Below the pieces are notes generated by a model. It was not told where the DNA came from, did not search any database, and was given only the letters and a program-made list of their open reading frames with translations. Shown here in pieces: positions 1 to 17,395 of a stretch of 28,325 nucleotides of DNA (position 1 is the first letter of the stretch; each line of letters opens with the position of its first letter). Where the stretch lies: assembly GCA_012841565.1 (NCBI GenBank), contig DUUM01000111.1, forward strand, positions 1 to 28,325, in the 5' to 3' direction. The translations under genes were made by a program, and so were the position numbers. The DNA is from Candidatus Epulonipiscium sp. GTDB lineage: Bacteria > Bacillota_A > Clostridia > Lachnospirales > Cellulosilyticaceae.

Positions 1-109
1 ACTTATTCACCTTGGGTTCAGCATAAAAGATATACATAAATTTATATATCATGTAGGCCATAAAGAGATTACCCATTGTATATACAATGTCATAAAGATG
101 GATATTCAT
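1..109 (-). CDS. Sensor kinase of the agr locus, N-terminal fragment
   Basis: An open frame starts at ATG 109-107 and runs off the left edge, giving 36 residues beginning MNIHLYDIVYTMGNLFMAYM. GGAGGAGTAGG lies directly upstream, and only 10 bases separate this start from the stop of the response regulator, so the two genes are co-transcribed. The visible part is hydrophobic and fits the first membrane segment of an AgrC-like receptor kinase. No kinase domain is inside the window. The identity therefore rests on position, next to a LytTR regulator, agrB and agrD, and not on a diagnostic motif. If correct, the protein would bind the exported cyclic peptide and phosphorylate the neighbouring regulator. 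Confidence 0.6.
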   Translation of the reverse strand, partial: MNIHLYDIVYTMGNLFMAYMIYKFMYIFYAEPKVNK

Positions 110-119
110 CCTACTCCTC

Positions 120-827
120 CTATTCTTCATTCACCTGTATTTCTCTTATTTCTTTTCTCCTTGATTGACTAATGGGCAATACATCTCCATTTGACATCAC
201 AATTTCATCATATCTAAACACACTTACATGGTTGTAGTTAATTAAGTATGAACGGTGTATTCTTACAAACTGGTAGTTAAAAACAACAGCAAGAATTTCT
301 TCCATACTACTATAAAAACAATCTTCTTTATCCATTAGCACCATTTTTATTTCTCTGTTGACACTTTCAAAATAAATAATATCTTGGGCAGGTACTTTGA
401 ACCTATCCTTGCCTTTATTATATTTGAAAAAACCCACGGCCTTTTTTGAACGAGCAATGGCTAGATTTAAATCCTCTATTATAATGTTGGGGCTAATGGG
501 CTTGGGAATAAAATGCAGCGGTTGAACATCAAAAAGCTGACGGTCGTAGTCATCCTTGCCCGATATATATACAATCTCAGTTATGTAATCCTTTATTACT
601 TTTCTTATTCGTCTTCCAACCTCAATGCCGTTTATGTTACCCATCTCAATGTCTAGGTAAATCAAATCAAACTGATTTATCTGTTCTATGTAATTTAGCA
701 ATGTTTCACCCGAATAAAACACTTCAATATCTATTTTTAAATAACTTTTTGCGCTATATTTTAAAATAATATGTTCAATTTGAGAGCATATTGATTTATC
801 ATTATCGCATATAGCAATCTTAAACAT
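120..827 (-). CDS. LytTR-family response regulator (AgrA-like)
   Basis: The product has 235 residues. Residues 1-120 form a receiver domain with the acidic pocket around D8-D10 and the phosphoacceptor D59 in DLIYLDIEMG; residues 130-235 form a LytTR DNA-binding domain with the typical RIHRSYLIN signature. This family of regulators binds pairs of direct repeats about two helical turns apart, and two such pairs occur upstream of agrD and of the sigma gene. The ATG at 827 follows AGGGGGTG. A promoter (TTGAAC, 17 bases, TAGAAT) and a leader hairpin precede it, so it has its own transcription start separate from agrDB. The family assignment is firm; the regulatory target assignment is inferred. 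Confidence 0.93.
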   Translation of the reverse strand: MFKIAICDNDKSICSQIEHIILKYSAKSYLKIDIEVFYSGETLLNYIEQINQFDLIYLDIEMGNINGIEVGRRIRKVIKDYITEIVYISGKDDYDRQLFDVQPLHFIPKPISPNIIIEDLNLAIARSKKAVGFFKYNKGKDRFKVPAQDIIYFESVNREIKMVLMDKEDCFYSSMEEILAVVFNYQFVRIHRSYLINYNHVSVFRYDEIVMSNGDVLPISQSRRKEIREIQVNEE

Positions 828-848
828 TTTAAAAACACCCCCTAAAAA

Positions 849-887
849 ACAAATTAGATAGTTGTTGGATCCCTATGTCTAATTTGT
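849..887 (-). promoter_or_regulatory. Leader hairpin with U-tract upstream of the response regulator
   Basis: On the minus strand a 10-base arm ACAAATTAGA is mirrored by TCTAATTTGT, extended by a further TAG/CTA pairing past a two-base bulge, and followed at once by TTTTTT and then the AGGGGGTG ribosome binding site. The layout resembles a weak intrinsic terminator or attenuator in the 5' leader. It could also be an operator palindrome. The stem is AT-rich, so termination, if any, would be partial. Confidence 0.5.
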
Positions 888-910
888 AATCCTTTTAATA
901 TTCTAAACTA

Positions 911-939
911 ATTCTACCTGTATTTTTATCAATGTTCAA
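911..939 (-). promoter_or_regulatory. Promoter of the response regulator/sensor kinase operon
   Basis: On the minus strand TTGAAC (939-934) is separated by 17 bases from TAGAAT (916-911), a good housekeeping-sigma match. Unlike the agrD and sigma-gene promoters, it has a recognisable -35 and no 22-bp direct repeats, which suggests basal rather than autoinduced expression of the two-component system. Confidence 0.6.
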
Positions 940-967
940 CTTAAATTTTAAAAAAGAACCTTCTGGC

Positions 968-992
968 TTTAAGTTTTACAATAAAACTTAAA
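968..992. repeat. Perfect 11-bp inverted repeat after agrB
   Basis: TTTAAGTTTTA and TAAAACTTAAA flank a three-base centre (CAA). It lies between the agrB stop and the promoter of the response regulator. It has few GC pairs and no clean U-tract, so it may be a weak 3' stem-loop of the agrDB transcript or a protein site. It is listed as structure only. Confidence 0.4.
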
Positions 993-1038
993 ACTAACCT
1001 GAAAGTCCTCATAGAATAGAATATTATTAGTTTTATTT

Positions 1039-1614
1039 TTAAATTTTTCTCTTAATCAAATTCTTGATTTTACCCAACATGAGCATAATAGATAGTGTTC
1101 CTAATGATACACTTATACAAATTGAGATTTGTTTCAAACTAATAACCCAAAATAACACAGTCAATCCAATCAAAATACTAAGTATAATGTTTGTTCTCTT
1201 TTTATAAACAGTTTGTTCTACATCGTCTAAAGGTTTATTGCCATCCTCTACAGGCGCTAACACGAAAATAATTATACTTGCAATTGTCATTATGATGAAG
1301 CAAATAAAATTATTCCAAAGAATATGTTTTATTAACCAAAGCACTGCTACCATCATAAATACTGAAAACAAGTAACATCTAAGCTGTGTTTTTGCATGAT
1401 AACCACCTGCATAAGGACGCAACACACCATAAGCGAGTATGAAAATTATACTTTCCCAAGTCATATTAAAGACGAAACCAATTGCTATAATTGTAATAAA
1501 GCTGTATATCAAAATTATCATTTGTTTAAATCCAAAAGAATAAAGCTCTTTATCTTCGTCTTCTATAATATTACAATCCACAAGCTGTTTAGTCAGTTTT
1601 TCTATACCTATCAT
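1039..1614 (-). CDS. agrB: AgrB-type membrane peptidase processing the autoinducer precursor
   Basis: The protein has 191 residues, a normal AgrB length. The diagnostic motif is RPYAGGYHAKTQLRC at residues 66-80, with the catalytic pair H73 and C80 spaced as in Staphylococcus AgrB. Several hydrophobic segments follow. AgrB cuts the C-terminal tail from AgrD and forms the thiolactone ring in the membrane. The ATG shares one base with the stop codon of the AgrD gene, so the two are translationally coupled. No downstream gene follows closely; the two-component genes have their own promoter about 100 bases on. The assignment is secure from the motif and from the adjacent precursor gene. Confidence 0.95.
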   Translation of the reverse strand: MIGIEKLTKQLVDCNIIEDEDKELYSFGFKQMIILIYSFITIIAIGFVFNMTWESIIFILAYGVLRPYAGGYHAKTQLRCYLFSVFMMVAVLWLIKHILWNNFICFIIMTIASIIIFVLAPVEDGNKPLDDVEQTVYKKRTNIILSILIGLTVLFWVISLKQISICISVSLGTLSIMLMLGKIKNLIKRKI

Positions 1615-1757
1615 TAGAATTTACGTAACTTCTTTGCGCCATCTGGCAACTTAGGCTGATGTACAAGTAACATACAAGCAGAGTTAACACTCTTAGCTGT
1701 AACCATTAATGCCGTATTCGCAAGCGCTTTACCACACTTCATTTTTAAGCTTTTCAT
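1614..1757 (-). CDS. agrD: AgrD-type cyclic lactone autoinducer precursor (47 aa)
   Basis: This small gene begins at ATG 1757-1755 after AAGGGGG and ends in TAA 1616-1614, overlapping the agrB start by one base. The 47-residue product begins MKSLKMKCGKALANTALMVT, an amphipathic basic leader. It continues with NSACMLLVHQPKLPDG and a basic tail AKKLRKF. The layout matches clostridial AgrD peptides, which have a Cys ahead of a short hydrophobic stretch and then a QPK-x-P charged tail. By analogy the mature signal would be a five-residue thiolactone ring from C28 to V32, perhaps with a short SA-type N-terminal extension. The exact ends are inference. It is driven by a promoter carrying LytTR-type direct repeats. 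Confidence 0.9.
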   Translation of the reverse strand: MKSLKMKCGKALANTALMVTAKSVNSACMLLVHQPKLPDGAKKLRKF

Positions 1758-1810
1758 AACTAAAACCCCCTTTGTTTTAATATTGTTTTAATATTGCTTT
1801 GATATGCTTA

Positions 1811-1876
1811 ATTATACATAATTTACCTCTTTATACGACTAAATGTAATGAGTTATATGGTTAGATGTAGTGAACT
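1811..1876 (-). promoter_or_regulatory. agrDB promoter with paired 22-bp LytTR-type direct repeats
   Basis: Two tandem 22-bp units occupy 1876-1855 and 1854-1833 on the minus strand. They share the core YTCAYTACATYWA, with AGTTCACTACATCTAA in the first and AACTCATTACATTTAG in the second. Sixteen bases after the second unit lies TATAAT (1816-1811). The -35 position reads GTCGTA and is not recognisable, as expected for an activator-dependent promoter. The predicted start near 1804 leaves about 47 bases before agrD. AGTTCAC fits the published LytTR half-site core (A/C)GTTN(A/G)(T/G). The binding protein is inferred to be the response regulator at 120-827. Confidence 0.75.
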
Positions 1877-1926
1877 AAAGTTTTTTATATATAATTTACA
1901 AACTTATCTACAATTTATGATTTTAT

Positions 1927-2664
1927 TTATCCTGCTTGTTGTGTATGTTTGAGTTCTTTTGAATAATTCGGTTTGTGTAATGGCTCAATATTCTCATAGT
2001 CTTTTGTTTCTTCAATAATAGCTTTCTGGCATGCACTTTTCATACAATCATGATGGATCCTTGAATTTTCTAATCCCATAAATCCACATAAGGCTTTTTG
2101 TACATATATTAATTTACTTATTGAATTTTCTATCTCTAATGTCGTATCTATTTCATGAGGTGTGCTATTAAAACAATATCCCAAAAAGAGGATATTCCGA
2201 TACTCTAATGGTAATAAAGATATTTTTCGTGCCAATTGCTTGATCTGCTCAACGGATAACGGTTGATATCTAATATTATTAAGGCAAGAACTCAACTTCT
2301 CTTGATTTACTATTTTTAAATATTCTTCTTCAATTGTGTGGTCACCATCTCTATGATTGAAATAATCTCCATTTTTCATGTGTGTAATTTGTGTGCGTTT
2401 CCTTATCATCTTTACTATTTCATTTTTCAATATTATAAAGCAGTAGGGTTCTATTTGCTCATATGACAAAGTATAAATTTTGTCAGCACTGTCCATAATG
2501 GCCAAAAACGTTTGTGCTACTGCTTCCTCTGCATCTAGCCTATTTCTTAATATATTGAAAGACATATTATACATTTTCACATTTGTTTCCGAAAAAATGT
2601 TATTCGTAAAATCTATTTCCTCATCTGTCATTGCGTCGAATAGTATAAGTATCAAATTTTTCAT
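1927..2664 (-). CDS. ECF-like RNA polymerase sigma factor under predicted Agr control
   Basis: The protein has 245 residues. Residues about 16-95 read as sigma region 2 (KMYNMSFNILRNRLDAEEAV, then YCFIILKNEIVKMIRKR), and residues about 137-196 as region 4 (LPLEYRNILFLGYCFNSTPHEI). A tail of about 48 residues follows, containing HHDCMKSAC, which is unusual for the family. No anti-sigma gene adjoins it. AGGAG touches the ATG at 2664 with no spacer. A TTG at codon 4 (position 2655) is nine bases from AGGAG and may be the true start; M12 is a third choice. The gene has its own promoter, with the same repeats as agrD. Sigma identity is likely, although region 4 is divergent. Confidence 0.8.
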   Translation of the reverse strand: MKNLILILFDAMTDEEIDFTNNIFSETNVKMYNMSFNILRNRLDAEEAVAQTFLAIMDSADKIYTLSYEQIEPYCFIILKNEIVKMIRKRTQITHMKNGDYFNHRDGDHTIEEEYLKIVNQEKLSSCLNNIRYQPLSVEQIKQLARKISLLPLEYRNILFLGYCFNSTPHEIDTTLEIENSISKLIYVQKALCGFMGLENSRIHHDCMKSACQKAIIEETKDYENIEPLHKPNYSKELKHTQQAG

Positions 2665-2791
2665 CTCCTATATCTTTTTATGTAACCTGTAAGTTCTTAC
2701 AATAGAATTCCCTTAACAATTTAATTGCAAAATCTTTCAACTCCCTTTTATTTTTATATTAATTTTATACACTCAATTATGCTCACTTTAT

Positions 2792-2857
2792 ATTATATAT
2801 ATTTTGTCTATTTATGCGGTTTAATGTAGTGAGTTATGTTGTTTAATGTAATGAACT
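2792..2857 (-). promoter_or_regulatory. Sigma-gene promoter with the same paired 22-bp direct repeats
   Basis: Two tandem 22-bp units lie at 2857-2836 (AGTTCATTACATTAAAC) and 2835-2814 (AACTCACTACATTAAAC) on the minus strand, followed after 16 bases by TATAAT (2797-2792). Spacing within the pair and from the pair to the -10 box is identical, base for base, to the agrD promoter. The -35 position reads ACCGCA, again not recognisable. The predicted leader is about 120 bases. The shared architecture implies the same LytTR activator. Confidence 0.75.
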
Positions 2858-2883
2858 AAGATTTTGGTGCACATAAAGAACTT

Positions 2884-4263
2884 TTACCATTCCTGAGTGT
2901 TACTATCCGTTATAGTTGCTTTTTTCCAGTTCTCTTTCCTATAAACAAGATACCCATAAATACAGATAATCAAATTACTAATACCCATAGAAAACCATAT
3001 TCCTTTTGAACCTATAGTTGTAAAATATTTTAATAATAAAATCATAGGTAACCTAACAAACCATAACCGTCCAATTTCCATATGCATAGAATATTTTGTA
3101 TCTCCAGTTCCTTCGAATATACCTTTAAGAATGCTAAATACCCCCATAAGCGGCATAAATAGAGATATATATTTCAGATACTCTATTGATTGTATAATTA
3201 CCTTATGATCATCCCTAGACCTAACAAAGAAATAAATAACAGGCGTGTTATGTATAAATAACAATACTGATCCTACTATGGAAAAAATTAAAGTTACATG
3301 CATGGCCTTTTTAAAAGCTTCTCGCACCCGCTCTGTTTGCCCACATCCTAGATTTTGACCTGCAATAGAGGTCAAGGACTCCCCAATCCCCATAGATGGT
3401 TGCATAATTAAAGATGTTATTTTATTGACCATCCCAAAGGCTGCAATAGTTGCTACACCATAAGATGCAATAAAAATATTTAGGACCATAAATCCCATAG
3501 CTGAGCCTGATTGCCCCACTGATGATGGTAAAGCAATCTTTATAATTTTTTTTATATTTTCTTTATCAAATCTAAATTTTCGAAAAGAAAGCTTGATATT
3601 TCCTTTGGAATTTATAAGTAGTATCATTCCAACAAAAGTAAGTAAAGCTTTTGAAATAATTGTTGCTACCGCAGCACCACCTATTCCCATATTAAAGGTG
3701 AATATAAAAATCGGATCAAGCACAGCATTAAGTATCCCACTAATACCACCAAGCACTGTAGGCATAATAGTATTTCCCTGGGAGTTCATAATGGCATTAT
3801 AATTAAATATAAAAAAGGTAAAAGGTAAATCTAAAAATGTAAGCCTAAGGTATATTTCGCCATAATAGGCAATTTCATCTTTTGCTCCCATTAACTTTAC
3901 AACCCAAGGAGTGGATAAATACCCTATAGCCGTAAAACATATGGCTGCTAAAAAAGAAATGACAACAAATTGGCTTGCATATTCATTTGCTTCTTTATAT
4001 TTAGAGGCTCCAATAAACTGGGCTAAAAGGGAAGTTCCCGCTATTGAAAGCCCTATTCCTAAAGATGTAAATAAAAAGTTAACGGGCCATACAAATGATG
4101 TTGCAGCAAATTCGGCTGATCCTAATTTGCTAATCCACATGGCATCTACTAAGTTATATAATGTTTGAATTAAATTGTTTAGCATAATGGGGAGTGCTAG
4201 TGTAAGGATTACCTTATACATATTACCCTTAAGTATTAATTCTCTTCGCTGATTTGTCTCCAT
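2884..4263 (-). CDS. MATE family multidrug/small-molecule efflux protein
   Basis: The protein has 459 residues and about 12 hydrophobic segments, the normal size of MATE transporters. The N-terminal half begins with a typical LILKGNMYKVILTLALPIML stretch followed by NNLIQTLYNLVDAMWISKLG, and a second homologous half starts near residue 230 (IKIALPSSVGQS). Members export cationic drugs or metabolites using Na+ or H+ gradients; the substrate here cannot be told. The ATG follows GGAGG. The gene ends just upstream of the sigma-gene promoter repeats with no obvious terminator, so read-through into the quorum locus is possible. Confidence 0.93.
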   Translation of the reverse strand: METNQRRELILKGNMYKVILTLALPIMLNNLIQTLYNLVDAMWISKLGSAEFAATSFVWPVNFLFTSLGIGLSIAGTSLLAQFIGASKYKEANEYASQFVVISFLAAICFTAIGYLSTPWVVKLMGAKDEIAYYGEIYLRLTFLDLPFTFFIFNYNAIMNSQGNTIMPTVLGGISGILNAVLDPIFIFTFNMGIGGAAVATIISKALLTFVGMILLINSKGNIKLSFRKFRFDKENIKKIIKIALPSSVGQSGSAMGFMVLNIFIASYGVATIAAFGMVNKITSLIMQPSMGIGESLTSIAGQNLGCGQTERVREAFKKAMHVTLIFSIVGSVLLFIHNTPVIYFFVRSRDDHKVIIQSIEYLKYISLFMPLMGVFSILKGIFEGTGDTKYSMHMEIGRLWFVRLPMILLLKYFTTIGSKGIWFSMGISNLIICIYGYLVYRKENWKKATITDSNTQEW

Positions 4264-4297
4264 ATTTTTTCCTCCATTATATTTTACAGATTTCTAC

Positions 4298-4306
4298 ATT
4301 ATACCA
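4298..4306 (-). promoter_or_regulatory. Extended -10 promoter of the MATE gene
   Basis: TGGTATAAT (4306-4298, minus strand) is a TGn-extended -10 box about 35 bases before the MATE start. The -35 region (TTCATT at 17 bases) is weak, which is usual for extended -10 promoters. Confidence 0.45.
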
Positions 4307-4324
4307 CTTTTAACGACATTAATG

Positions 4325-4357
4325 AAAAAAATAGAAAGAGATTAATATCTCCTTCTA
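4325..4357 (-). terminator. Intrinsic terminator of the MBOAT/SGNH operon
   Basis: On the minus strand TAGAAGGAGAT pairs with ATCTCTTTCTA (11 pairs, one G-U) around a four-base loop and is followed by seven T. It lies 11 bases past the stop of the SGNH gene. Confidence 0.85.
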
Positions 4358-4367
4358 ATAGATAGTA

Positions 4368-5300
4368 TTATTCTATGTCTTCCAATATTATCTTGGTAAA
4401 AAGCTTTGCTCCAGTTACATTGAGGTGACTAGAATCAAAGAAATACTCAGTATTATTAATAAATCTCTCATCATGAGAATAATCCAGATATCTAACACCT
4501 GGATATTTATCTAACACACTACTAATACTATTCTCGAAATCATTGTAAAATATCTCAGAAAAATGTTCACTATAATATTTAGTAACAGGTGTTGTTATCA
4601 TAATAGGTATTATATTGTTATCTAGACATTTTTGTATTATATCTTCTACAATTAGTATGTTTTCGTCCTTGACCGCCTGCCCCTTTTCTATAAAGTCATG
4701 ATGTGTTTCAGCCGTTTTCTTAGATTCTTCTCGCATCTTTTCCTGAGGTATTGTATAATCCATCTTGTCCTGTTCATACCAAGGTTTATATTCTTTCTCA
4801 TCCTCTACAACTATATATTTAATGTTAGATTCCGCTGTTAATAGGGGCAGAACACCATATTTTAAATAATCACTAAGCGTCAGTTGTTTAATATCCCTAG
4901 GTCCTAAAATCTTATAGTACACTTTGTTATATTTTTGAAAGTTCTCATCCTTATCATCATACCCTAGATAAAAACTTATATACGAGATTGGAATAAACAA
5001 AGTAGATCCTTCTTTAAAATTCTCTATATACTTGTCCAAAATCTTATTATCGTAATGTAATCTTTGGGCAGGCAGAGCGAAATTAAAGCTCGTTCTTTCT
5101 ACATCATCAAATAAAAAAGCATATTGAGCATGAGAGGTGCCTAGGTTAGCCACTTCTATTTCCATTGGAACATGATCAAATTTTTCCGTTGCATTTGCAG
5201 ATTTATATCTGTCTGTATTGATATATAAGTTATTGATGCCTCCTAAAGTCAAAATTAATATCACCAAAAACACCATGCTTTTTTTTATAAGCTCTGTCAT
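4368..5300 (-). CDS. SGNH-like acyltransferase/hydrolase partner of MBOAT (DltD/AlgJ-like)
   Basis: The 310-residue protein starts with a single hydrophobic anchor (residues about 8-25) and is otherwise soluble, so it should face the outside. S56 in NLGTSHA is the likely nucleophile of block I, and D289 and H292 in DSSHLN form the rest of the SGNH triad. It follows the MBOAT gene after 18 bases in the same operon. Known pairs of this kind (AlgI-AlgJ/X, PatA-PatB, DltB-DltD) move acyl groups through the membrane protein onto a cell-surface polymer through the SGNH partner. The acceptor here is unknown. The fold call rests on the three motif residues and on context. Confidence 0.75.
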   Translation of the reverse strand: MTELIKKSMVFLVILILTLGGINNLYINTDRYKSANATEKFDHVPMEIEVANLGTSHAQYAFLFDDVERTSFNFALPAQRLHYDNKILDKYIENFKEGSTLFIPISYISFYLGYDDKDENFQKYNKVYYKILGPRDIKQLTLSDYLKYGVLPLLTAESNIKYIVVEDEKEYKPWYEQDKMDYTIPQEKMREESKKTAETHHDFIEKGQAVKDENILIVEDIIQKCLDNNIIPIMITTPVTKYYSEHFSEIFYNDFENSISSVLDKYPGVRYLDYSHDERFINNTEYFFDSSHLNVTGAKLFTKIILEDIE

Positions 5301-15125: not shown

Positions 15126-15641
15126 TTATTTTTTTACATCGTCTTTAACTTCTACTTTAGTTTCGTCTTTAACTTCTACTTTAGCTTCGTCTTTAACTTC
15201 TACTTTAGCTTCGTCTTTAACTTCTACTTTAGCTTCGTCTTTAGCTTCTATTTTAGCTTCGTCTTTAGCTTCGTCTTTAGCTTCGTCTTTAGCTTCGTCT
15301 TTAACTTCTTCTTTAACTTCTTCTTTAACTTCTTCTTTAACGTCTTCTTTAACTTCTACTTCTTCTACATCTAATATTTCTTTAGGAGTTGATAAAATAA
15401 CTGTTTTTTCTTTATAGTCAACATCAACACCTAAAACATTTGCAGCATCTCTAATTGGTAGATAAATTTTATCTTCAAATACTAATGCGCCTTTACCTTC
15501 TAAAACTTCTTCTCCATCAAAAGTATATTTAACTGTTGGATTAAAATATCCTTTGATTTCTTTTAAAGCTGGCTGTGCAATTACATTAAGACCCATTCCT
15601 GCGATTAAACCTACAACTAAAACTAATTTTCTACTTTTCAT
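15126..15641 (-). CDS. Secreted protein with copper-amine-oxidase-type stalk domain and charged repeat tail
   Basis: The 171-residue protein has three parts. Residues 1-22 form a signal peptide (MKSRKLVLVVGLIAGMGLNV, then IAQPA as a likely cleavage site). Residues about 32-88 match the N-terminal stalk domain found in copper amine oxidases and many clostridial surface proteins (GALVFEDKIYLPIRDAANVL and a TVIL strand). Residues 90-171 are almost only K, E, D, V and A, in repeats of KEEV, then KDEA, then KDEAKVEV. No anchor or enzyme motif is seen. The tail is probably an extended charged rod or disordered polymer for cell-wall or ion interaction; this is inference. AAGGAGTG precedes the ATG. 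Confidence 0.85.
   Translation of the reverse strand: MKSRKLVLVVGLIAGMGLNVIAQPALKEIKGYFNPTVKYTFDGEEVLEGKGALVFEDKIYLPIRDAANVLGVDVDYKEKTVILSTPKEILDVEEVEVKEDVKEEVKEEVKEEVKDEAKDEAKDEAKDEAKIEAKDEAKVEVKDEAKVEVKDEAKVEVKDETKVEVKDDVKK
15132..15356. repeat. Nested 12-bp and 24-bp minisatellite inside the secreted-protein gene
   Basis: On the plus strand, about four near-identical 24-bp units (core TCGTCTTTAACTTCTACTTT) are followed by about five 12-bp units TTCGTCTTTAGC and about four TTCTTCTTTAAC units. All keep the frame, so copy-number change would lengthen or shorten the protein tail without frameshift. The opposite-strand reading frame made by these units is an artefact. Confidence 0.9.
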
Positions 15642-15824: not shown

Positions 15825-16925
15825 TTATCTTTCCTGGCTCTTTAGAAACTCTAAAACCTCATTTGTATTCCCCTCGAATATAATCTCATGTGTGGTTTTT
15901 TGTATTTGGTAATTATACATAGGGTCATAATAATCTCTTAGCATGATTTCTATCCAGTCACGGTGCTTTTTTGGGCTACCTGTCCTAAGCTGCTCTTGAT
16001 AAGCCTGCTCAAATACAGCTAAAATCTCTTTACAACTTTCCTCGCCAAATCGTTTTTTGATTTTCATAACACTTTCCCTGATATAGTCGGCCCATTGACT
16101 TAGTGCTACTTCGTCTGCATATACTTGGCAGTAGTCTTCTTGGGATTGATAGACGTATTCATCCATGGTAATTTCAACGCGCTCCTCAATCGGCACTTTA
16201 AGAACAACTAAATTACCACTATGAAAATGAGCAGCTAATGGTTGTGGTAAAAACCTTGCCCCCACATTTCTTCCTTCATCTTCTAGAATCATATTCTTGA
16301 AACCTTGATGCTTATGGTTAATTAAGGCATAGGCAAGATTATTCTCAAAGTTAATTGGCGTTGGTTGGGGGGTTATTTTACTTCCAAAGGATGACCCCCT
16401 ATGGTTAGCAATGCCTTCAAGATCAATGGCATTCTTAAGTTTTTTAAGTAATATGGTTTTGCCTGATCCTGTGCATCCACCTAATAAAATCGGCGTACTA
16501 ATTAGGGCTGATGGCTCTAGTTGCTCCATTAGATAGTTTCTAAAAGCCTTATAACCACCGTCAAGTCTTAGAATTTGCTCTCCCGTTGCCTCTTTAATCC
16601 ACTCTTGGGATATTTGAGATCGTTGACCACCCCTAAAGCAGTAAATCATCGTCTCTGGATTGTTTTTTATATGATTCTGCCATGCCGTAATTCGGGCTTG
16701 CCTTATATCTCCTGATACTAATTCATATCCTAATTTAACAGCTTCTTCATTTCCTTTTTCTTTGTAGCAGATGCCGACCAAATGTCTTTCTTCATCGTTC
16801 ATTAGGGGTAAGTTTACCGTGTTTATAAAGGCACCTTTTTTAAATTCTATTGGCGCCCGAACATCTATTAAGGGTGTTTGGTTTAATACTATTTTTTCAA
16901 AGTCATTATATACAACTGTTTTCAT
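15825..16925 (-). CDS. mnmH: tRNA 2-selenouridine synthase
   Basis: From ATG 16925 the protein has 366 residues. The N-terminal rhodanese domain carries the catalytic Cys96 in YCFRGGQRS, and the C-terminal part has the P-loop GGCTGSGKT (149-157) of the SelU/MnmH family, followed by HRGSSFG. The enzyme replaces sulfur by selenium in the wobble 2-thiouridine of Lys, Glu and Gln tRNAs through a geranylated intermediate, using selenophosphate. A longer frame opens at GTG 16961, but ATG 16925 has AAAGGTGAG just ahead and overlaps the upstream selD stop by one base, so I prefer it. Selenium donation is questionable because the adjacent selD is truncated. Confidence 0.95.
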   Translation of the reverse strand: MKTVVYNDFEKIVLNQTPLIDVRAPIEFKKGAFINTVNLPLMNDEERHLVGICYKEKGNEEAVKLGYELVSGDIRQARITAWQNHIKNNPETMIYCFRGGQRSQISQEWIKEATGEQILRLDGGYKAFRNYLMEQLEPSALISTPILLGGCTGSGKTILLKKLKNAIDLEGIANHRGSSFGSKITPQPTPINFENNLAYALINHKHQGFKNMILEDEGRNVGARFLPQPLAAHFHSGNLVVLKVPIEERVEITMDEYVYQSQEDYCQVYADEVALSQWADYIRESVMKIKKRFGEESCKEILAVFEQAYQEQLRTGSPKKHRDWIEIMLRDYYDPMYNYQIQKTTHEIIFEGNTNEVLEFLKSQER

Positions 16926-17395
16926 TATCTCACCTTTATTAGCTTTCCAAAGCGTTCGCACGTATGACCTACAGATTCTAGAGATAATCCTGCAAGAGGT
17001 ATTCCTGCATCATCGCAAACAGCCCTGCCGCCTTCAATAACCTTTCTTGCTATTTCTGGTGGCAAAATATTAACTGGCCATCCTAAGATTGATATAGCCA
17101 TCAGGGGCTTTCCTCCCATTGCATAAATATCGCTAATAGCGTTGGTTGCAGCTATTCTCCCAAAGGTATAGGGATCATCTACAATTGGCATAAAAAAATC
17201 TGTCGTACTTAAAATAGACGTCCCATTTCCTATATCAAAAGCTGCTGCATCATCTTTTGTACTGTAACCCACAATAAGATCTGGGTACTCTACTTTAGGT
17301 GTTGTTGTGCGTAAAATTGTTTCTAGTACAGAGGGTGCTATTTTACACCCACACCCTGCACCATGGCTATATTCCGTTAATTTAATTTCTTCCAT
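16925..17395 (-). pseudogene. selD: Selenophosphate synthase with large internal deletion
   Basis: The frame encodes 156 residues, while SelD is normally about 345. Residues 1-136 are a clean N-terminal domain: the active-site loop HGAGCGCKI (C15, C17, K18), the ATP/Mg-binding [17 protein letters not shown], and [16 protein letters not shown], up to AGIPLAG. There the expected continuation (GGHSI and the rest of the second domain, with its Mg-binding aspartate) is missing. The last 20 residues, [19 protein letters not shown], resemble an ordinary SelD C-terminus, so a deletion of about 190 codons without loss of frame is the simplest reading. The remnant is unlikely to be active alone. It lies between hflC and mnmH, overlapping mnmH by one base. 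Confidence 0.8.

Follow-up and report, generated by a model that had tools for sequence, protein, structure and literature searches.

The stretch of Candidatus Epulonipiscium sp. DNA analysed here, 28,325 nucleotides of contig DUUM01000111.1 and hereafter the window, carries on its minus strand a set of agr quorum-sensing genes. Next to them lies a gene encoding a chimera, in which region 2 of an extracytoplasmic function (ECF) sigma factor is joined to the N-terminal part of a DUF4367 membrane protein, the partner that is encoded beside such sigma factors. The chimera gene and agrD are preceded by twin promoters that have a paired direct repeat in common. The features of the locus are as follows.

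1927..2664, minus strand: sigma/partner chimera gene, 245 amino acids (aa) from ATG or 242 aa from TTG at 2655 (protein matches, trees)
2272..2664, minus strand: region 2 of an ECF sigma factor with its linker, aa 1-131 (35 sigma rows at 46-61% identity)
1930..2283, minus strand: partner-derived region-4-like helix-turn-helix (HTH) domain plus tail, aa ~128-245 (53 partner rows at 44-64% identity; fold matches at 135-200)
2846..2858, minus strand: distal direct repeat of the chimera promoter (repeat pattern and offset)
2824..2836, minus strand: proximal direct repeat of the chimera promoter (repeat pattern and offset)
2792..2797, minus strand: TATAAT -10 of the chimera promoter (exact match)
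1865..1877, minus strand: distal direct repeat of the agrD promoter (repeat pattern and offset)
1843..1855, minus strand: proximal direct repeat of the agrD promoter (repeat pattern and offset)
1811..1816, minus strand: TATAAT -10 of the agrD promoter (exact match)
1614..1757, minus strand: agrD, autoinducer prepeptide, 47 aa (TIGR04223, 49.6 bits, cutoff 19)
1039..1614, minus strand: agrB, processing protease, 191 aa (PF04647, 155 bits)
120..827, minus strand: AgrA-like LytTR response regulator, 235 aa (PF04397, 62 bits; PF00072, 46.5 bits; both above the gathering score)
2..130, minus strand: next open reading frame (ORF), 43 aa, open and truncated at the window end; perhaps a sensor kinase, labelled from gene order

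Twin promoters of agrD and the chimera gene

Both promoters read, on the minus strand, TAGTTCA(C/T)TACAT, nine bases, TAACTCA(T/C)TACAT, 26 bases and TATAAT, a paired direct repeat of 13+9+13 bp layout with a period of 22 bp. The paired-repeat pattern was matched twice in the window where none was expected (100 shuffles), and in both promoters TATAAT lay 61 bp from where the first repeat begins. Since exact TATAAT occurs on the minus strand at a frequency of only ~0.0014 per base, the common offset, judged post hoc, is unlikely to have arisen by chance. An earlier reading of the sequence alone (the original prediction) had named the agr genes, the paired repeats common to the two promoters and their equal distance to TATAAT, all of which are borne out by the domain scores and matches given above.

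The two promoters were identical at 12/13 positions in each repeat (24/26 together), 5/9 in the linker, 17/26 in the spacer to the -10 and 6/6 in the -10 itself, and at 17/69 positions directly upstream and 10/33 directly downstream of this block. Because identity drops to background just outside the repeat-to-minus-10 stretch, the conserved block is best regarded as a control element and not as the remnant of a longer duplication. A recent long promoter duplication was ruled out on the same ground as the sole cause of the twin operators.

No third operator pair was found in the window, where the next best candidate scored 18 versus 34. The best operator-like pair in six loci of intact relatives described below (L001-L006) scored 16.6, and none of the best three per locus lay upstream of the sigma gene. 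Allowing up to three mismatches, the operator pattern was matched in 0/392 genomes of the order that contains Defluviitalea, indicating that it is not a general motif in the sampled order. The agrD half-sites agree with the LytTR 9-bp consensus at 6/8 and 5/8 positions in register, and chance pairs within agrB fit better. As the half-sites fit this consensus only partly, the operator was assigned to the linked LytTR regulator through linkage and geometry. Promoter and terminator scans of positions 1-4400 gave results at chance level, and no Rfam family was matched in the window at the gathering threshold. Co-regulation of the chimera gene with agrD appears to be the best reading of the twin promoters. 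Judged from sequence, the agr control proposed earlier for the sigma-like gene is therefore well supported as shared control; the product of that gene is not the ordinary sigma factor that had been supposed.

The intergenic stretch that separates agrB from the regulator gene (828-905, minus strand) contains a hairpin with TTTTTT after it, directly 5' of the regulator Shine-Dalgarno sequence. Folding of the 78-base piece gave -14.6 kcal/mol (z -2.5), but a longer piece gave a z of 0.4; the hairpin is a possible terminator or attenuator limiting expression of the regulator.

Architecture and relatives of the chimera

A protein search with the chimera returned 92 matches at E ≤1e-5. Thirty-five were sigma factors, mostly of ~185 aa, that aligned only within residues 1-134 (46-61% identity), and 53 were proteins mostly of ~324 aa with DUF4367 (PF14285) that aligned only within residues 110-244 (44-64% identity). 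Three matched over the full length, namely the entry for the window's own protein (P0001), P0002 and P0003, and one (P0007) is a separate fusion. The join between sigma and partner falls near residues 128-131, and beyond it the protein is homologous to the N-terminal part of DUF4367 membrane proteins encoded beside such sigma factors. The chimera stops short of the transmembrane helix and of the DUF4367 domain, and gave no PF14285 match. The TTG start at 2655 has an AGGAG at a better spacing and agrees with the 242-aa database entry.

Region 2 scored 20.4 in Pfam, versus a gathering score of 24, and its homology to ECF sigma factors lies within residues 1-134. NCBIfam sigma models matched the piece of residues 1-131 alone, below their cutoffs, and TIGR02937 gave 28.7 bits with the chimera, under its cutoff of 42.9. 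Region 4 of Pfam gave no match to the chimera up to E 1. The predicted fold of the partner-derived domain resembles region 4 or a LuxR-type HTH, with matches at 135-200. When partner and sigma profiles were compared with hhalign the probability was not significant, though the partner aligned to the region 4 segment, and every E-value obtained with Foldseek for the partner model exceeded 0.5; absence from the VIA rows was not counted as absence of the fold. Thus, the ECF-like sigma gene with motifs of regions 2 and 4 that had originally been described is correct as to region 2, which is real and kept, whereas the true region 4 is lost and replaced by a domain of the membrane partner for which a region-4-like fold is predicted by modeling.

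The six loci of intact relatives derive from Alkaliphilus (L001, a metagenome-assembled genome, MAG), two Tissierella including Tissierella sp. P1 (L002), Defluviitalea phaphyphila (L003), a Tissierellaceae MAG and a Clostridiales MAG. Sigma factor and partner were separate genes in all six, overlapping by 35 bp in L001; the sigma start is missing in L005 and the partner is split in L003. Within these loci, the flanks of which are limited by contig ends, no relatives of AgrB or the regulator were found among ORFs of ≥70 aa at E 1e-5, and a tblastn search up to E 0.1 with AgrD added to these two gave none either. An in-frame deletion together with an earlier stop in such a pair would give the architecture of the chimera. 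The DUF4367 partner is probably an anti-sigma factor. If the interpretation given below is right, DUF4367 sigma partners would have a region-4-like domain and might then act by imitating region 4. Two partner proteins, P0053 and P0064, end before the transmembrane helix and show that soluble partner domains exist; the longest contig is of 255,746 bases for both P0064 and the sigma factor P0004, which may be neighbours.

The intact systems have a promoter motif of another kind. TGTCCC-N15/16-CGTTATA followed by a TAGGTAAGAA-like sequence stands 5' of the gene after the partner in L001, L002, L004 (with one mismatch) and L006. Two further copies of TGTCCC-N15/16-CGTTATA, one with a mismatch, lie downstream in L001, and in L003 the motif is 5' of another gene. 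It is therefore present in five of the six loci and not in L005, the genome of which (G005) has a copy outside the locus; the distant loci L037 and L038 also carry it. The long pattern was matched in 4/6 genomes, once in each, with 0 matches in the reversed control, and the short N15 form with one mismatch was no better than the control (9 versus 22 over the six genomes). The motif is a promoter-like element of the intact loci's own and would offer a ready reporter. With up to three mismatches it had 13 matches in the window versus 17 in the reversed sequence, the best with two mismatches, and no target emerged. The part of a sigma factor that would be expected to recognise TGTCCC is missing from the chimera.

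Positions of the strongly conserved, promoter-like TGTCCC-N15/16-CGTTATATAGGTAAGAA are L001:11528, 12193 and 12379; L002:5796; L003:3541; L004:11535; L006:4826; L037:3003; and L038:385. The motif in L001, L002 and L006 precedes a 143-aa protein that by eye looks secreted. Inside the sigma coding sequence of five loci there is a TGTCCC-N17-CGTTGTA/CGTTATA match (L001:10193, L002:4454, L004:10199, L005:233, L006:3492) that may reflect only conserved codons.

A fourth chimera, P0213, was added by profile search. In separate trees of the two halves (27 rows each) all four chimeras formed one group, with support of 99/97 and 96/94, and of 99/98 and 99/97 for the three chimeras when P0213, which has long branches, was left out. 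The tail SK(E/D)LKH(T/R)Q is common to the window chimera, P0002 and P0003 and occurs in 0/23 partner rows; the tail of P0213 is unlike it. The linker of P0002 and P0003 is short by 23 residues. Near-invariant sigma columns were kept at 29 of 37 in the window chimera, 24 in P0002, 22 in P0003 and 24 in P0213, and near-invariant partner columns at 25, 20, 20 and 21 of 34, respectively. Since the four members, though diverged, group together in each half, the fusion appears old and kept in frame, and the chimeras look like one old in-frame fusion rather than fresh decay. The separate fusion P0007 (6 contigs) keeps the start of region 4 and its partner likeness ends soon after the join, probably because of a frameshift; its existence indicates that the sigma/partner gene pair is seemingly prone to fuse.

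An AgrB match (E 1e-15) was found in 75/383 genomes of the order containing Defluviitalea. In 30 loci taken from these 75 genomes, a few of them shorter, no ORF matching the sigma profile lay within ~1.5 kb of AgrB; this profile did detect the window gene (174.6 bits), and in L001 it matched a further ECF-like ORF (35.8 bits). Adjacency of a sigma-like gene to agr does look rare. Searches with the chimera gave a match of any sort in 10 of 393 genomes of the order of G001 and in 19 of 392 genomes of the order of G631, and none of these matches was fused. A close unfused pair is present in G001 and G003, and a distant one in G982 and G1023. RimO identities listed for 391 genomes of the class reached at most 61%; the five genomes with the best scores belong to the order containing Defluviitalea, of which the host is probably a deep lineage. 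No match to the chimera was found in plasmids, phages or viral contigs, and an origin in mobile elements is accordingly without support. Among the 120 of 472 AgrB matches listed, none falls on the contigs of P0002, P0003 and P0213 (2,795, 4,207 and 1,292 bases), which weakly disfavours an agr link shared by the other chimeras. Among titles and abstract starts of the matches listed in the open-licence literature, no report of an agr-linked sigma/partner chimera was found.

Elsewhere in the window, the minus strand has at 16925-17395 a selD-like ORF of 156 aa, overlapping the start of a following gene that resembles mnmH/selU. Full-length SelD is about twice this size and the ORF is apparently a truncated selD. 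A protein with a long KVEVKDEAK-type repeat tail is encoded at 15126-15641, minus strand.

Proposed role of the chimera and alternatives

The locus is interpreted as an old fusion of an ECF sigma factor with its DUF4367 partner, placed under the agr circuit. The product would most likely act as a sigma-like initiation factor, a reading about evenly balanced against its rivals. Region 2 of the sigma factor is joined in frame to the cytoplasmic region-4-like HTH domain of the partner; the sigma factor's own region 4 has been lost, and with it the partner's transmembrane helix and outer domain, presumably by deletion and an earlier stop. Both agrD and the chimera gene are preceded by a LytTR-type operator of one kind, spaced equally from the -10, which would serve in their activation. 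As the autoinducer accumulates, the phosphorylated LytTR regulator would be expected to turn on agrDB and the chimera gene. The soluble product would then bind the RNA polymerase core via region 2, the partner-derived HTH taking the place of region 4, and would have an altered specificity controlled by supply and not by a membrane anti-sigma factor. The second layer of regulation envisaged in the original prediction is possible by way of the chimera. It is more tentatively proposed that the sigma factor gave up its region 4, which reads the -35, and took the partner's region-4-like domain in its place, escaped membrane anti-sigma control and came under an Agr operator, yielding a cell-density-controlled initiation factor with rewired promoter choice. 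If so, a membrane-sensing sigma/partner pair would have become, by fusion, a soluble and transcriptionally controlled regulator wired into quorum sensing.

Two points speak for the main rival to an initiation factor: no true region 4 is present, and the domain that was kept derives from the putative inhibitor. They would suit a decoy or dominant negative that binds the RNA polymerase core, or an intact sigma factor or partner elsewhere in the genome, without directing transcription, quorum sensing thereby titrating an ECF response off or on. A precedent is PhyR, described in the excerpted text of PMC8103513 as mimicking EcfG and sequestering NepR. The predicted two-domain layout of the chimera, however, resembles a complete ECF sigma factor, and the decoy is considered somewhat doubtful.

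It is unlikely that the chimera is self-inhibited, the partner-derived domain locking region 2 in cis until some event such as proteolysis or a ligand frees it. Such a lock would accord with a partner that is probably an anti-sigma factor, as suggested by the gene overlap in L001 and by the one hydrophobic stretch seen by eye before the outer domain, and fused regulatory domains are known in ECF41 according to a title in the reference list of PMC8103513. No release device is visible, however, inhibition of the sigma factor by the partner is itself conjectural and no open-licence paper joining DUF4367 with a sigma factor was found.

Still less probable is a decaying gene, that is, a deletion scar of a sigma/partner pair placed by chance behind an agr-type promoter. 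The loss of two conserved domains would be expected of such a gene, and the P0007 fusion, with its probable frameshift, sets an example of decay; yet the four diverged chimeras keep long frames and form one group, and a sharply delimited block is conserved between the chimera and agrD promoters. The ordinary ECF sigma factor under agr control of the original prediction, in keeping with an intact region 2 and with some NCBIfam sigma models that span both domains below their cutoffs, is scarcely credible, being already contradicted by the lack of a canonical region 4, the TIGR02937 score below cutoff and a C-terminal half that resembles DUF4367 proteins.

Comparison with known systems

In common with Agr systems the window has AgrD, AgrB, a LytTR regulator and, upstream of the autoinducer promoter, direct repeats in pairs spaced by about two turns of the helix. 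The excerpts available of the respective reports describe AgrA as binding paired direct repeats upstream of P2 and P3 (PMC4227749) and SilA as having 10-bp repeats 11 bp apart (PMC2766830). The 22-bp period and the position of the repeats in the window fit such descriptions of LytTR activators (two helical turns, upstream of the promoter). The differences are a period of 22 versus 21 bp, half-sites that only partly match the LytTR consensus and a second likely target gene, that of the sigma/partner chimera.

As a complete sigma factor, ComX belongs to another group, and in the ComDE-ComX system the signal is CSP and not an Agr cyclic peptide. In excerpts of two reports, pneumococcal ComE, of the AgrA family, binds paired direct repeats and upregulates genes including an alternative sigma factor (PMC6066662, PMC4739721). 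So far as these excerpts describe it, the Streptococcus pneumoniae system resembles the window in its peptide signal, AgrA-family regulator and paired direct repeats before the signal operons and a sigma gene. The original prediction had called Agr output through a dedicated ECF sigma factor no standard arrangement; with ComE and ComX as a precedent the idea is less unusual, while the 0/30 AgrB loci with a sigma-like ORF nearby are in its favour.

The ECF sigma/DUF4367 pairs of L001-L003 have a region 2 with linker and a partner N-terminus homologous to the two halves of the chimera. They differ in consisting of two genes, in the presence of region 4 and of the transmembrane and DUF4367 domains, in their own promoter motif and in flanks in which no agr relatives were found. 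The split sigma factor SigO-RsoA is a further possible analogue. ECF41 and ECF42 proteins keep region 4, whereas in the chimera it is replaced by the partner-derived domain. They are like the chimera in having a region 2 with an extra domain in cis, and PhyR is like it as a sigma-like protein under two-component control, both as given in the excerpts of PMC8103513. PhyR, however, is itself the response regulator, whereas the window chimera is the likely transcriptional target of one.
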